IMG/VR virus record: IMGVR_UViG_3300027996_000014
Span: 1-64,000 of that record
Length of the DNA: 64,000 bases
Source of the DNA: a virus
Direction: 5' to 3' (one strand)
A program made the position numbers and the translations under genes. Positions 19,135 through 26,184 of this stretch are shown here, one piece after another. Under the pieces are notes generated by a model. It saw only the letters and a list, made by a program, of their open reading frames with translations. It was not told the DNA's origin and ran no database searches. Positions within the stretch are counted from its first letter, which is position 1, and each line of letters opens with the position of its first letter.

Positions 19135-21312
19135 TTAGAATCCTATAAGACCTTCTTTTAAGCTTCTGCTATCATTAACAGTTTTCTTTACTTTCATTTT
19201 ATCAAAATATGGATCATCTAAAAATCCTTTTACTTCATTTATTCTATTATCTATAGTGTTTCTAGTAGTAGCATCATGCCACAATACCATACCTAATGAT
19301 GAAACCCTATCAAAGTTACCTTGAGGATTCCACATAATAAGTTCTCTAAGTAATGCAGGAGAATAAATAGTTTCAAGAACTCTAGTCTCACTGTTAGTAG
19401 ATACTTTTTCTAATAACCAAGATTTTATATAATCTCTAGCTGTAGAATTTACTTTTTGAGATGCATTAATTCCTTTAGATGTATTACTTCCTGTTTTATA
19501 TGTATCTGAATTACGTAATTGGTAAGGCGTATCAGCTAATAAATATAAACATTTATGTTTTTCAAAATACGTAAACATTCCTGGAAGATTTTGCTCATAC
19601 ATTCCTGTAGCGTTATAATATAATAATAATTTTCTGCAGATTTCGTAAAAATCATTAGGGTCATCTGTTCTCCCTGTATACTCAGCAACTATTTGCCTAG
19701 TATATTTATTCATTATAAATATAGAAGGTAGTGAATTAGTTGTAGATTTTGCTTTATCTACAACATCCATTCCTGCTATGTATGTACCGTAAGGAATTAT
19801 ACCTTCTTCATTACGTTGTGGTTTTACCCATATCTCTATACAACCTTCTTTTTTTTCGTGTTTCCCTAAAGGATAATTACGAATAGGCATCATATCTTGA
19901 ATGGTATCAAAATCTGGCTTATCGTCTTTATCAAATATAATGTTTCCTCTAAACGAAGATTCTAAATATTTTTTAAATTTACCTCCTTCAAGTTCACCAA
20001 GCTGATCTTTAAGATATAACGTTGGAAAGTAAGAACCTTCTAATACTAAGAATGCTTCTGAAGGAAGTACTGGACCATTAATTATTTCTGTCTGGTATAC
20101 TGTTGGATCAGTAGACTTTTTTGCTTTCTTTCTTTGATATTCAATTTGCAACCTAGCTTTAGACTCATCTGTTATAAGATCAGGTTTAACCTTATGTTCA
20201 TTTAAAGTTTTCCAATAAGGAACAAAATAACCAATTCTTCCTCTATTTTCAAAAATATCATCAAACTCTACACAATTATAATCTGCAGGGTTTCTAAATA
20301 TTCCTTCAGCATATAAAGCCGCTCTTCCAGATACAAGTCCTCCTGTACCTAAAGCCCATATTACTAAATTCTTTTTAGTTTTTGATGCTTGGGTAGCTTC
20401 AATTGCTCCCCATGATTCTTTAATATTATACATAAATCCAATCTCATCTAATGCAACAAGGTTTGGACGAGTACTATTGGCAGCTAATGGATTATCTCTA
20501 AATGTTCTGTGACGTAACAATGAACCTGTTTTAGATTCATATTCTCTATTAGGTGCTAATGACCCAGTATAAGTAGTCATCAACGGAGATGGGTAAAAAT
20601 CTTCTCCTATTCTATAAGAACCTTCTAAATGTTTAAACCCAGTTCTACATTTTTTAATTAATGGTTCAGTATATTTAGTATCAATGGCTCCTATAATAGT
20701 ATCAGATGCGATATAATCTTTAGTTTTCTTACGTTCTAAATAATTATCATAATCTGTTGCCCCATCAAATAAAAAATTATGATTAATAATTCCTGATGTA
20801 GCATATGACTTACCTCCACCTCTGGCCTGTATACTCATTAAATGCTTTGCTGAATTTTTATATAACGGCTTTCCTAAATCCTTACCGTGATTTTTACGTA
20901 AGTATTCTCTAGCTGGTATGTACGTCATAGACTTTACTTGCACTGCAGTAACTCTTCCTAACTGTAATGCTAGTTCTTTTTCTGGCCCAAACTTTCTGTC
21001 GCATGTATATGTACTATCATTAGTAAAACCTGAAAATCCTCTACACTCTTCATAGATTAGAAATAGTTCCCAATCAATATCTCTTAACCAAGGAAGCCCC
21101 GTTGCCTGTGCAACAGAGCTATCGTCTTCAAATAGAATTTTATGAAAATTAATATAATAATACAGCGGACCTGGCATCCATTTACCTCCTGACCATTTAC
21201 CCTCAATACAATAACGTTTTTGTTCTCCCCAAAAAGTAATACGTTCATAGTATTCTAATTCAGGGTGATGATTAGGTATTTCTGTAAGTTTAAAATTACT
21301 ATTGTTTACCAT
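19135..21312 (-). CDS. terL: Terminase large subunit
   Basis: 725 residues. The N-terminal ATPase has a Walker A variant at about 165-169 (GGGKS within QARGGGKSYATSG) and Walker B with the catalytic acidic pair at 289-290 (LVALDEIGF). The C-terminal RNase H-like nuclease starts around AGMDVVDKAK (Asp516) and continues with a second acidic region near LYLLADTPYQ. The enzyme packages DNA into the prohead through the portal and cuts concatemers. It lies 2 bases after a small gene that may be its small subunit. Confidence 0.9.
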   Translation of the reverse strand: MVNNSNFKLTEIPNHHPELEYYERITFWGEQKRYCIEGKWSGGKWMPGPLYYYINFHKILFEDDSSVAQATGLPWLRDIDWELFLIYEECRGFSGFTNDSTYTCDRKFGPEKELALQLGRVTAVQVKSMTYIPAREYLRKNHGKDLGKPLYKNSAKHLMSIQARGGGKSYATSGIINHNFLFDGATDYDNYLERKKTKDYIASDTIIGAIDTKYTEPLIKKCRTGFKHLEGSYRIGEDFYPSPLMTTYTGSLAPNREYESKTGSLLRHRTFRDNPLAANSTRPNLVALDEIGFMYNIKESWGAIEATQASKTKKNLVIWALGTGGLVSGRAALYAEGIFRNPADYNCVEFDDIFENRGRIGYFVPYWKTLNEHKVKPDLITDESKARLQIEYQRKKAKKSTDPTVYQTEIINGPVLPSEAFLVLEGSYFPTLYLKDQLGELEGGKFKKYLESSFRGNIIFDKDDKPDFDTIQDMMPIRNYPLGKHEKKEGCIEIWVKPQRNEEGIIPYGTYIAGMDVVDKAKSTTNSLPSIFIMNKYTRQIVAEYTGRTDDPNDFYEICRKLLLYYNATGMYEQNLPGMFTYFEKHKCLYLLADTPYQLRNSDTYKTGSNTSKGINASQKVNSTARDYIKSWLLEKVSTNSETRVLETIYSPALLRELIMWNPQGNFDRVSSLGMVLWHDATTRNTIDNRINEVKGFLDDPYFDKMKVKKTVNDSRSLKEGLIGF

Positions 21313-23214: not shown

Positions 23215-23490
23215 TTATATTGAAAATATTTCACTATTTAATTTATACCTACCTCTTGTTATTTCTCTAATTATTAATTCTCGTTTTTTTAATGATGCAA
23301 TATGTTTATCTAAAGTAGTAATAGTAATATCTAAATTATTCATTATTTCTTTTTTATGAATCTTATCAGCATACCATATTCCACTTTCTTCATCTATTTG
23401 ATTTAATATAATATGCAACACTTTAAAAGTTGTATCATTAGCTTTTAATAGAATCGATTCTTTAATATCTAAATATGCTAATACTATCAT
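23215..23490 (-). CDS. Winged-helix DNA-binding protein, paralogue 2
   Basis: 91 residues. The sequence aligns over nearly its whole length with the gene upstream: SILLKAND.TFKVLHIIL, a turn with IWYADK, then KKEIMNNLDITITTLDKHIA (helix-turn-helix) and LKKRELIIREITRGRYKLN (wing). This is the usual order of a small winged-helix regulator. It overlaps the first paralogue by 4 bases. It probably regulates transcription from the divergent region close by. Confidence 0.7.
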   Translation of the reverse strand: MIVLAYLDIKESILLKANDTTFKVLHIILNQIDEESGIWYADKIHKKEIMNNLDITITTLDKHIASLKKRELIIREITRGRYKLNSEIFSI

Positions 23491-23789
23491 AATGTAATTA
23501 ATCTTTTATTCAATCTAAATTTTCCTCTTACTTCTGTAACAGATATTAATTCTAACTCTTTTAGTATTTTTAAATGTCCTTCAAGTGTAGACCTACTAAT
23601 TTCTAATTTACTCATTATTGATTCTCTATTAGTTTTATCTGAATGCCAACAATAATCATTTGGGTTAGCATCCCTTAATACATAATGAAGTACTTTCAAG
23701 GGACTACTGTTTAGCTTTAAAAGAATACTTGAATTGTTTAATTCAAAACTCAATGTTGCTTTTTTCTTTTTATAATAACCTCTTTTCAA
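23487..23789 (-). CDS. Winged-helix DNA-binding protein, paralogue 1
   Basis: 100 residues: a basic N-terminus (MKRGYYKKKKATLS), then KVLHYVLRDANPNDYCWHSDK, a helix-turn-helix (SIMSKLEISRSTLEGHLKIL) and a wing (LISVTEVRGKFRLN). First gene of the late minus-strand operon, 35-60 bases behind a consensus promoter and about 150-240 bases from a cluster of palindromic and repeated sites. A self-regulator or late-gene activator is the simplest idea. Both paralogues could form homo- or heterodimers. Confidence 0.7.
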   Translation of the reverse strand: MKRGYYKKKKATLSFELNNSSILLKLNSSPLKVLHYVLRDANPNDYCWHSDKTNRESIMSKLEISRSTLEGHLKILKELELISVTEVRGKFRLNKRLITL

Positions 23790-23824: not shown

Positions 23825-23855
23825 CAAAGGTAATAAATTATTGTTACTATCAAAA
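23825..23855 (-). promoter_or_regulatory. Consensus Bacteroidetes promoter of late operon
   Basis: Minus strand TTTTG (23855-23851), 18-base spacer, TACCTTTG (23832-23825). This fits the Bacteroidetes sigma consensus TTG / TAnnTTTG very well. Transcription would begin around 23818-23820, about 30 bases before the first winged-helix gene. Confidence 0.8.
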
Positions 23856-23931
23856 TGATTCTAGTATAAAGTTAAATAAAAGTTAAATAAAGTTAGGATA
23901 TCAATTTATTATAACAGTAGTAAATGCTCTA

Positions 23932-23949
23932 TTACGGTTTAAACCGTAA
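23932..23949. promoter_or_regulatory. Perfect 18-bp palindrome in the divergent region
   Basis: TTACGGTTTAAACCGTAA is a perfect inverted repeat centred at 23940/23941. Its right half is also the start of the repeat array at 23942-24033. A dimeric DNA-binding protein, such as the adjacent winged-helix proteins, is a plausible ligand. Confidence 0.75.
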
Positions 23950-24033
23950 CGCTGTTATGGGTACAGCCGTAACGTTGTTATGGTTCTAGCCGTAATAGTG
24001 GTCAGGCTAAAGCCGTAATAGGAATGGACGTTA
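23942..24033 (+). repeat. Four 23-bp-spaced direct repeats (iteron-like)
   Basis: The core A(G/A)CCGTAA begins at 23942, 23965, 23988 and 24011, an exact spacing of 23 bases. Units 1 and 2 also share CG(C/T)TGTTATGG after the core. Regular spacing near two helical turns places the sites on nearly the same face of DNA. The array lies in the only divergent intergenic region of the window, so it may be an operator array or a replication origin. Confidence 0.75.
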
Positions 24034-24263
24034 TTTATTAGGAGTCAGTTAGTTACGTGTTTGAATATCACTCCGAATTCCCCCTATAAGATAAACTTTA
24101 TAGTTTCTAACGAATATCATCATATTTTAAAATAACTTTTTTATTATTTTTTTAAAACACTCAACTAACCGTGTGAACTTAAAAAAATTATAGACCCCCC
24201 CCTTACCTTTTATTATTTAAAAATACTTAGCGAGTATTTAAGCTGAGACCACCTATAATTTAA
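24034..24263. other. Gene-free AT-rich leader region
   Basis: No reading frame and no host-type plus-strand promoter could be seen. It contains A/T tracts, an eight-C run at about 24196-24203 and a short hairpin CTATAA...TTATAG near 24086-24105. Probable promoter and leader sequence for the early plus-strand genes. Confidence 0.5.
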
Positions 24264-24300
24264 CCCCTACTAAAAATGGGCAAGGGGAAAGTAGTCCCCC
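24264..24300 (+). promoter_or_regulatory. Possible H-type pseudoknot / switching hairpin in 5' leader
   Basis: CCCC (24264-24267) can pair with GGGG (24284-24287), and CTACT (24267-24271) with AGTAG (24290-24294): an interleaved, pseudoknot-type arrangement. GGGG can alternatively pair with CCCC at 24296-24300 as a simple hairpin. Two exclusive folds 30 bases before a start codon suggest a regulatory leader, but this is only a by-eye folding. Confidence 0.35.
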
Positions 24301-24308
24301 GTAAAAAA

Positions 24309-24329: not shown

Positions 24330-24638
24330 ATGAAAAATTTAAAATTAGACAGGTTAGCAAATCTGGTACAGACTTACGGAGCTAAGTTGTACAAGCAAGG
24401 AGAATCATTGGGTACCGTTGTCGTAGGACAAGAAGGCGTTACCATTGACGGAGAAGCATTAGTAATACCTAACGGTGAAGAAGGTACAATGTATATACCA
24501 TTCAGACGAGGTATAGTAGGTGAAGAAGGTAAGACGTACGAACTTCACGTATTCACAGCAGAACGTGATGCCAATGGTACGTACAACGGTGAAGCATGGT
24601 CAGTAACCAAAGGTCACGAGAAGGTATTTGCGTCATAA
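24330..24638 (+). CDS. First early gene, unknown function
   Basis: 102 residues; no family recognised. An N-terminal helix (KLDRLANLVQTYGAKLY) precedes a beta-rich acidic domain with many Gly-Glu pairs (IPNGEEGTMYIPFRRG). The gene is visibly richer in G+C than its neighbours and uses codons such as ACG, GTC and TAC more often, which could mean recent acquisition or selection for high expression. It is a single-gene unit: leader motif upstream, strong terminator 6 bases downstream. First-in-line position suggests a host-takeover protein. Confidence 0.65.
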   Translation: MKNLKLDRLANLVQTYGAKLYKQGESLGTVVVGQEGVTIDGEALVIPNGEEGTMYIPFRRGIVGEEGKTYELHVFTAERDANGTYNGEAWSVTKGHEKVFAS

Positions 24639-24644
24639 TAGTAC

Positions 24645-24678
24645 ACCCACAATGTCGAAAGATGTTGTGGGTTTTTTA
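24645..24678 (+). terminator. Rho-independent terminator, 12-bp stem with GAAA loop
   Basis: ACCCACAATGTC (24645-24656) pairs with GATGTTGTGGGT (24661-24672) around a GAAA tetraloop, including two G-T pairs, and is followed by TTTTTATA. Ends the transcript of the 24330 gene. Confidence 0.9.
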
Positions 24679-24689
24679 TAACTATGTAA

Positions 24690-26160
24690 TATACTTACAA
24701 CTTACAGTTATTTGGTCCTATTCTAACACTAATTAACTGAACTCTCAGTACTCAAGTAGTACTTGCATATGAACACGCTAAGATATTCATTATTAATACC
24801 TTATAATCATGAAAAATGATGACAATGTTGTTGTTAACGGTTGTTGTACTACACTCGCATGGCTTCTAAATCCTAATGGATAAAGCCACAATATCAATTT
24901 GATATAATATTTATAGCTCAATATTAATTACACAGGATATGTAGAGACTTCCACGTACTCGAACGGCTTATGTAACAATAATCTATAATATACAGTACAA
25001 CACCTTAACTCATAAGAACTCAGTGAATAATAGTAGCTGAGTTCTTTATTATTAACATTAAACTCTCATACAATAGTAGCATTACCCTTGGTAGATTGAC
25101 CTCTCATATTAGAATTAAACAGTCAATCCACACGGAAAATCCCTTTAATTATCTATTTAATCATTAAAAGATTAATAAGATAACAGGATATGCATCAAGG
25201 ATTAGAACCTTGTGAGAGCTTATTATTTAATGACAAAAACATAAGTTTTAACCATTAAATATATTAAAATGATAGTAGTAAAAACAGGAAAAGAGCTTGA
25301 TAAACTCTGGAACGAATTAATGCAAAAATCAAGGTGCAACCTTGTAGAGAAGATATTGATATATACTCACGAGGTATATATTATAGAGTAATAGGTACTG
25401 CAGTACTGATAAGTGAGACTAGCGACAGCCCTTAGCCCTTGTTACAACAAGGTGGTCTAAGACGGAATATGAAGAAGTTTTATTTTACTTGTACTTATTA
25501 AAAACATTACCTTCTGAAGAGTTACCTCAAGCACATAGAAGATGTAAAACTGCGCAGGATGAACCTGCTGAGTTAGCTCACTCTTAGAGGTGGGCAGGTA
25601 ATAATATTGGTCAAACCTATGACCATGTGACTATAACCGTATCCTGTGAAATTCAGTATAAATATAGAAAACCGACTTTAATCACAAAAGAAAGGTAAGG
25701 GAAAGTGTGACCTCTGTTAGATACAAGTTAAGATGCATATAACCTTATCCAGTGTACCCTTGAAATGCCATTTGAGAGGGAATCGTAAGCGTTAACTATA
25801 ACGTGCTTTAAGCAATATAATAGTACACTGAGGAGTTGGCGGCAAGAGATAAATCGGCTCATGGTCCAGTTGCCGAGTGCCTAATAAGAGAGTCTGGAGT
25901 ACCAGTAGAAATAAGCACTTATTTATCTCGTGACCATTGAAAGATGGTACTAATACATAATAAAGCTAACCTCTTGACAATGTTAGGACTTGTAAAGTCA
26001 AGTATAAAAGCATACTAACAAGGTATGGTGGTGTATATAACACGTAATAAACTCCTACTAAGATGAAAGCACCTTGTTTATTTATTAATAAATTACTTTA
26101 TATAATAATGTGGTTTCACCCTATTGGCTTAGCTCTGTGTAAATCCCACATTTATTATAT
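24690..26160 (+). ncRNA. 1.5-kb structured, largely gene-free region; candidate large RNA(s)
   Basis: Only one plausible small gene (25269-25391) and a doubtful 24-codon frame (24809-24883) lie here. The DNA contains many perfect stems on the plus strand: AAGAACTCAG/CTGAGTTCTT (25014-25046), GATTGAC/GTCAATC (25094-25128), CCTTGTT/AACAAGG (25437-25452), GCAGG/CCTGC (25555-25569), GGTCA/TGACC (25608-25624), CAGTGTA/TACACTG (about 25751-25830), GAGATAAAT/ATTTATCTC (about 25846-25929), AGTACC/GGTACT (about 25898-25950), CTTGAC/GTCAAG (25973-26001), AACAAGGT/ACCTTGTT (26017-26078), and an AT-rich hairpin at 26099-26160. Size and complexity recall the large ornate phage RNAs (GOLLD, ROOL), but I claim no match. 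Confidence 0.55.
25269..25391 (+). CDS. Small hypothetical protein inside structured region
   Basis: 40 codons from ATG to TAA, product beginning MIVVKTGKELDKLWNELMQK. The A-rich leader (ATATTAAAATG) and protein-like composition (amphipathic helix plus a hydrophobic end) favour a real gene. A short hairpin (CAAGGT/ACCTTG) lies inside the frame. Function unknown. Confidence 0.45.
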   Translation: MIVVKTGKELDKLWNELMQKSRCNLVEKILIYTHEVYIIE

Positions 26161-26162
26161 TA

Positions 26163-26179
26163 TTAACCCTTTAAACTTA
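26163..26179 (+). promoter_or_regulatory. Shared early leader motif, copy 2
   Basis: TTAACCCTTTAAACTTA, 5 bases before the lipoprotein start codon. Near-identical to the copies at 24309 and 26369. Confidence 0.5.
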
Positions 26180-26184
26180 TAACA

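Follow-up and report, generated by a model that had tools for sequence, protein, structure and literature searches.

Four tandem palindromes in the divergent control region of a crAss-like phage genome, a probable docking site of a small phage winged-helix protein

The divergent control region of a crAss-like phage genome carries an array of four 18-bp dyads, and the covariation of half-sites with recognition helices indicates that this array is very probably the docking site of a small winged-helix protein encoded by the phage. Its function is most likely that of a gene switch and possibly that of a replication start; with a probability somewhat above even, it can be read as a four-site operator array for a single-domain winged-helix protein that would form an autoregulated switch. 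For Crassvirales, few of the proteins and DNA sites are known by which replication is started or the early and late phases of transcription are timed. The array together with the winged-helix protein would make a defined pair of site and protein, in which a code relating residues to bases can be tested. It also represents a natural experiment, where a duplicated regulator and its operator array appear to have gained a new specificity jointly. In a sister clade the same genomic slot is occupied by a different protein, with sites at a pitch of 32 bp.

The window, that is, the whole stretch of 64,000 nucleotides analysed here, belongs to an 88,208-bp contig which was assigned to a crAss-like phage of the Crassvirales by terminase and portal matches. 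The nearest named relative is Cellulophaga phage phi14:2 (Crassvirales, Steigviridae) with a 33% identical terminase. Gene direction in the contig switches only twice, at ~24.0 kb (divergent) and at ~51.1 kb (convergent), and so the array does lie in the sole divergent region, as the first-pass annotation of this DNA had stated. Leftward of the array two winged-helix genes, designated as w1 and w2, are followed by the terminase (large subunit, 19135..21312, minus strand, which served as a query for relatives), the portal, and further late genes, and rightward a small conserved gene is followed by genes of DNA polymerase, ligase, DnaB helicase, and primase. The small gene is the first early-direction gene (24330..24638, plus strand, 102 aa), and its homologues are found clade-wide in divergent orientation to the winged-helix gene. 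Phage phi14:2 is similar in having a crAss-like genome with divergent early and late gene blocks; neither tandem palindromes nor a homologue of the winged-helix protein were found in its divergent region. No credible tRNA or Rfam features were found in the array region.

The first unit of the array, TTACGGTTTAAACCGTAA (23932..23949, TTACGG-n6-CCGTAA), is the perfect 18-bp palindrome noticed in the first-pass annotation and the longest perfect palindrome of the 64-kb window. Shuffled 64-kb sequences are expected to contain 1.02 such palindromes, and a lone 18-bp palindrome is a chance-level feature that means little. The four cores AACCGTAA/AGCCGTAA of (A/G)CCGTAA type start at 23942, 23965, 23988, and 24011 with steps of exactly 23 bp, also as first described. 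The description of these sites as one palindrome leading into direct repeats is nevertheless wrong, since units 2–4 are dyads as well: unit 2, TTATGGGTACAGCCGTAA (23955..23972), and unit 3, TTATGGTTCTAGCCGTAA (23978..23995), both have the form TTATGG-n6-CCGTAA with one arm mismatch, and unit 4, GTCAGGCTAAAGCCGTAA (24001..24018, GTCAGG-n6-CCGTAA), has an intact right arm and a degenerate left arm. Thus the repeating unit is an 18-bp dyad occurring four times at 23 bp, with each core inside its own palindrome. The three-unit array score was 53, compared with 41.3±1.4 and at most 45 for 40 shuffles of 64 kb; the runner-up elsewhere in the window scored 41, and the array is far beyond chance. TTACGG-type dyads of comparable quality are present in the 88,208-bp contig only in the array, so that, as in an operator system, several dyads of one specificity are restricted to the control region. 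On its winged-helix side the array is flanked by a 75–85% AT stretch (23867..23931), whose position is conserved in relatives and which is a candidate unwinding element or second promoter.

Searches with the terminase and the winged-helix proteins gave about 140 loci, many of which were the same contigs, and the region between early gene and winged-helix gene was scanned for tandem dyads without any preset motif, three units being counted. The same kind of array was found in the same place in 25 related loci at 23–24 bp pitch; the first-pass annotation had proposed conservation of the 23-bp spacing as a check, and the pitch is kept rather than lost. Several of these loci (e.g., L042, L085, L106, and L112) had scores that exceeded those of their own shuffles barely or not at all and were kept because their position, pitch, and half-site agree with those of other loci. 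The fourth, half-degenerate unit of the relatives is visible in the alignment, where its left arm is degenerate too. The distance from the array is 281–490 bp to the early gene versus 78–2788 bp to the winged-helix gene, and because the former is steady and the latter varies, the array belongs to the early side. The half-site itself drifts among related loci (ACTATC, ACTATA, AGTATC, and TTACGG), and ACTATC dyads also occur in L081 and L099, two loci outside the set used for building the weight matrix.

The two proteins encoded next to the array are w1, a 100-aa winged-helix paralogue (23487..23789, minus strand, recognition helix SRSTLEGHLKIL), and w2, a 91-aa winged-helix protein (23215..23490, minus strand, recognition helix TITTLDKHIASL), each consisting of one winged-helix domain. 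Among the collected loci w1 is confined to the window and its closest relative (L003/L004), and most relatives possess one winged-helix gene, orthologous to w2. The AlphaFold2 model of w2 has a mean pLDDT of 86. Model and profile searches matched single-domain winged-helix regulators, and searches of solved structures gave generic winged-helix matches only, which say nothing on function. No cellular homologues of the family were found in a search of genome contigs. Of the two proteins, w1 is proposed as the reader of the TTACGG array and w2 as an autoregulator.

The identity of the reader is indicated by the covariation of recognition helix and half-site. Helices of TLDKH or TLDTH type pair with the ACTATC half-site, and the Asp is kept in 22 of the 26 tabulated loci, where strong half-sites carry C at dyad position 9, with the exceptions that some arms deviate (e.g., AATATAC in the ACTATA group) and that L047 came out in the wrong register. 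In one clade PGLDKH/PALDKH helices pair with ACTATA, so that the replacement of Thr by Gly or Ala goes with the change of C to A. In L100 (PSLAKH) and L112 (PTLAKH) the Asp is replaced by Ala and position 9 is mainly G (AGTATC), although C persists in one strong half-site of L112; these loci are distant on the gene tree and represent two separate lineages with the same C to G change. Finally, the w1 helix (STLEGH) of the window and L003/L004 pairs with T at position 9 in the TTACGG half-site, and TA at positions 8-7 is constant in strong half-sites. The gene tree was built from few columns and has many open forks, and the number of independent specificity changes, about four, is a reading of it rather than a formal test. 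Judged from sequences, the binding of the array by the phage winged-helix protein, which the first-pass annotation had listed among its suggestions, is well supported by this covariation, and the specificity of the regulator appears to match the dyad.

The w1/w2-terminase operon has a Bacteroidetes-type promoter (23825..23854, minus strand), in which the -33 TTTG (23851-23854) and the -7 TACCTTTG (23825-23832) match the TTTG/TANNTTTG consensus (PMC6847099). Its -33 box is covered by an imperfect ACTATC-type operator, TACTATCAAAATGATTCTAGTA (23845..23866), which is the top site of this type in the 88-kb contig by a thin margin (7.5 bits, next 7.2). In leave-one-out weight-matrix scans of whole loci the matches were almost solely to the array, to the -33 box of the winged-helix promoter (L007–L011, L051, L053, and L078), and to an early-side site, present in the same subclade as the -33-box sites and followed after 8 bp by the conserved element TATAAGGTAAACC. 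Thus a dyad over the regulator's own promoter is found at the -33 box in relatives, and the corresponding site of the window is weak and imperfect. On the early side the conserved element CTATAAGATAAACTTTATAGT (24084..24104, plus strand), which in relatives is of TATARGGTAAACC type and is followed by a short hairpin, is a candidate early promoter by its conservation. Its exact pattern occurs once per contig; the idea that TATAAGGTAAA is an early promoter present in several copies was rejected, since the contig has a single exact match. Further downstream a conserved leader element, ACCACCTATAA...ACCCCTACTAAA...GGGG (24248..24305, plus strand), precedes the early gene. As a separate observation, the leader GTGGTTACCACCTATA...ACCCCTACTAAA...GGGG is kept in both clades (window 24248-24305; L052, L130, L125, and others).

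As an operator, the array would be read by the w1 paralogue here and by the single w2-type protein in relatives, with one dimer per dyad; neighbouring dyads, being ~2.2 helical turns apart, would allow cooperative binding, and the bound dyads could form a nucleoprotein block in the upstream region of the early gene. The winged-helix protein would repress its own host-type promoter, and the adjacent early unit would be switched as the late operon comes on, being most likely repressed and perhaps activated. In this genome the function is probably split between the paralogues, with w1 on the array and w2 on the shared promoter; such a division of labour is suggested by the position of the best ACTATC-type site, over the -33 box in the promoter of w1/w2. 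Late genes of Crassvirales are held to be transcribed by host RNA polymerase and early genes by the virion polymerase (PMC10136315), and this division fits the host-type promoter of the winged-helix/terminase operon. The arrangement resembles lambda OR of the CI-Cro type, in which divergent units are likewise separated by several dyads that bind a small HTH dimer and an autoregulation site is present; unlike lambda OR it has four evenly pitched sites located upstream of, and not over, the candidate early promoter, and, unlike CI-Cro, its regulator is encoded at the start of the late operon with the terminase. There are points against an operator as well: the array lies ~65–110 bp from the candidate early element and not over it, control of an early promoter leaves the AT-rich element on the other side of the array unexplained, the ACTATC site on the w1/w2 promoter is weak (the 7.5 bits given above), and an autoregulating protein could equally be an initiator.

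In a sister clade the same slot follows a similar logic with a different protein. Its loci contain a winged-helix protein of 'LEKM/LEKI' type preceded by a gene for a ~171-aa protein, presumably RepL-like, a label which comes from sequence habit and was confirmed by no library. The predicted structure of this protein is of low confidence (pLDDT 49), and no kinship with the small winged-helix family was detectable. No four-site array was found in these loci; most of them have two palindromes exactly 32 bp apart, 50–90 bp before the RepL-like gene. The helix and half-site pairs are SSKAMF-GTACTA, SSKSTF-GTGTTA, SSRDKF-GTCCCC, and TSESTF-CTGTCA, so that the half-site tracks the RepL-like helix and not the small protein, whose SLPALEKM is identical in three groups. 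Among the collected loci the RepL-like gene with its palindrome pair and the four-site array are mutually exclusive. The two systems are alike in genomic slot, in rigid-pitch tandem palindromes, and in half-sites that covary with a recognition helix, and they differ in the number and pitch of palindromes and in the size of the reader. By eye, a similar AT-rich stretch around CTTATT-TTATTTGGGA was seen in L052, L130, L133, L125, L116, and L134, on the early side and 70–100 bp from the palindrome pair; an exact pattern search did not recover it.

The first-pass annotation had named both an operator switching early and late transcription and a replication origin. As an origin, where the dyads would be iterons, the winged-helix protein a minimal initiator, and the AT-rich flank the unwinding element, the array is a doubtful candidate in spite of its anatomy. 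This is close to ori-lambda, whose four iterons are imperfect inverted repeats of 19 bp beside an AT-rich tract (PMC7466680): both have four tandem imperfect palindromes of 18–19 bp by an AT-rich tract, and a winged-helix-type DNA-binding domain, in lambda that of the O protein, is encoded close by. There is a single array per genome, the AT-rich element beside it is conserved, and the phage encodes DnaB helicase and primase without a recognised initiator. Moreover, w1/w2-type proteins give weak matches to O-like and replication-initiation PHROG families and, in fold searches, likewise weak matches to crAss-like 'replication protein' entries. The replication mechanism of Crassvirales is described as unknown, and a review infers their replichores from GC skew (PMC10136315). 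However, the protein is a DNA-binding domain only, of 91–100 aa, and w1 and w2 do not have the C-terminal helicase-recruiting domain of the O protein; unlike ori-lambda, the array is intergenic, 78–2788 bp from the winged-helix gene and not inside an initiator gene, its half-sites evolve freely, and the promoter of the protein itself bears a related site. The flank of the array is 65–90% AT across relatives vs ~71% for the genome, where intergenic DNA is generally AT-rich and such flanks are common; the winged-helix matches are generic. The DnaA-like ligand supposed in the first-pass annotation was not supported, as the AAA+ ORF at 45918-47087 matches generic ATPase/clamp-loader-like families with no DnaA match, and no TTATNCACA DnaA box was found within 3 kb of the array. 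GC skew, suggested there as a check, was rejected as origin evidence: the cumulative minimum near the array coincides with the gene switch, and in L100 and L020, where early-direction genes sit between the array and the winged-helix gene, the skew of these genes (-0.14 to -0.27) goes with the coding strand and changes sign where gene direction switches and not at the array, evidence that is weaker if these inserts are recent. Four-fold-site skew gave no separate replichore signal either. The origin is left without independent support, and an early/late operator is favoured because a site of the same family occurs on the -33 box and at the early-side element in one subclade, because the protein is a DNA-binding domain only, and because the array is tied to the early side. 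A fuller version, in which the array is the replication origin of the lineage, a ~100-residue single-domain winged-helix initiator also represses its own promoter, and here a diverged duplicate took over with a new sequence code, may be entertained tentatively.

That the same protein at the same array both starts replication and controls transcription is unlikely. Precedents exist, since Rep autoregulates in iteron plasmids and transcription crosses the origin in lambdoid phages, and iteron plasmid Rep proteins (RepE, pi) use tandem sites at ~22–23 bp and, in the promoter of the regulator, an operator dyad related to them. The present region is similar in this combination and differs in that its sites are palindromes and not direct-repeat iterons and that the protein has one winged-helix domain instead of two. 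The co-occurrence of autoregulatory site and array, the lambda-like dyad layout, and the AT-rich and promoter-like elements conserved to either side of the array fit such a dual role, but it shares the gaps of a pure origin, with nothing positive for initiation. Reading of the array by a host factor or another phage protein, with the covariation as a phylogenetic coincidence, is improbable. In its favour, there are only about four independent specificity changes, and in the sister clade a different, RepL-like protein covaries with the palindrome pair; against it, Asp-to-Ala replacement in two separate branches goes with the identical base change, the RepL-like gene is found in none of this clade's array-bearing loci in the collected DNA, and dyads with the same half-site are located on the winged-helix promoter itself. 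Scarcely credible is a chance product or a structural RNA or terminator with hairpins in the transcript; single-strand folding beats shuffles (z -3.45) and one of the dyads was scored as a stem of terminator type, both being expected of tandem palindromes, but the array score is far outside the shuffles, and the 23–24 bp pitch persists although the half-sites have diverged, a constancy for which RNA hairpins give no reason.

Several minor observations concern the neighbourhood of the array. In one subclade the array is separated from the winged-helix promoter by a gene with RNase H/DNA-polymerase-exonuclease-like domains (L038 4706-5509, L041, L043, L047, and others). Right after the first early gene of the window, 1.54 kb (24640-26180) contain no ORF longer than 46 aa in an otherwise dense genome; no Rfam family matched this stretch, its folding was no better than that of coding controls, and ~24740-25090 within it shares 76% identity with a non-coding stretch of L003. 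Possibly it represents an early non-coding RNA. Runs of TATACCCCCC/TAGACCCCCCCC with AT-rich tracts after them recur in the early-side intergenic DNA of many loci, for example, at 24186-24200 of the window.
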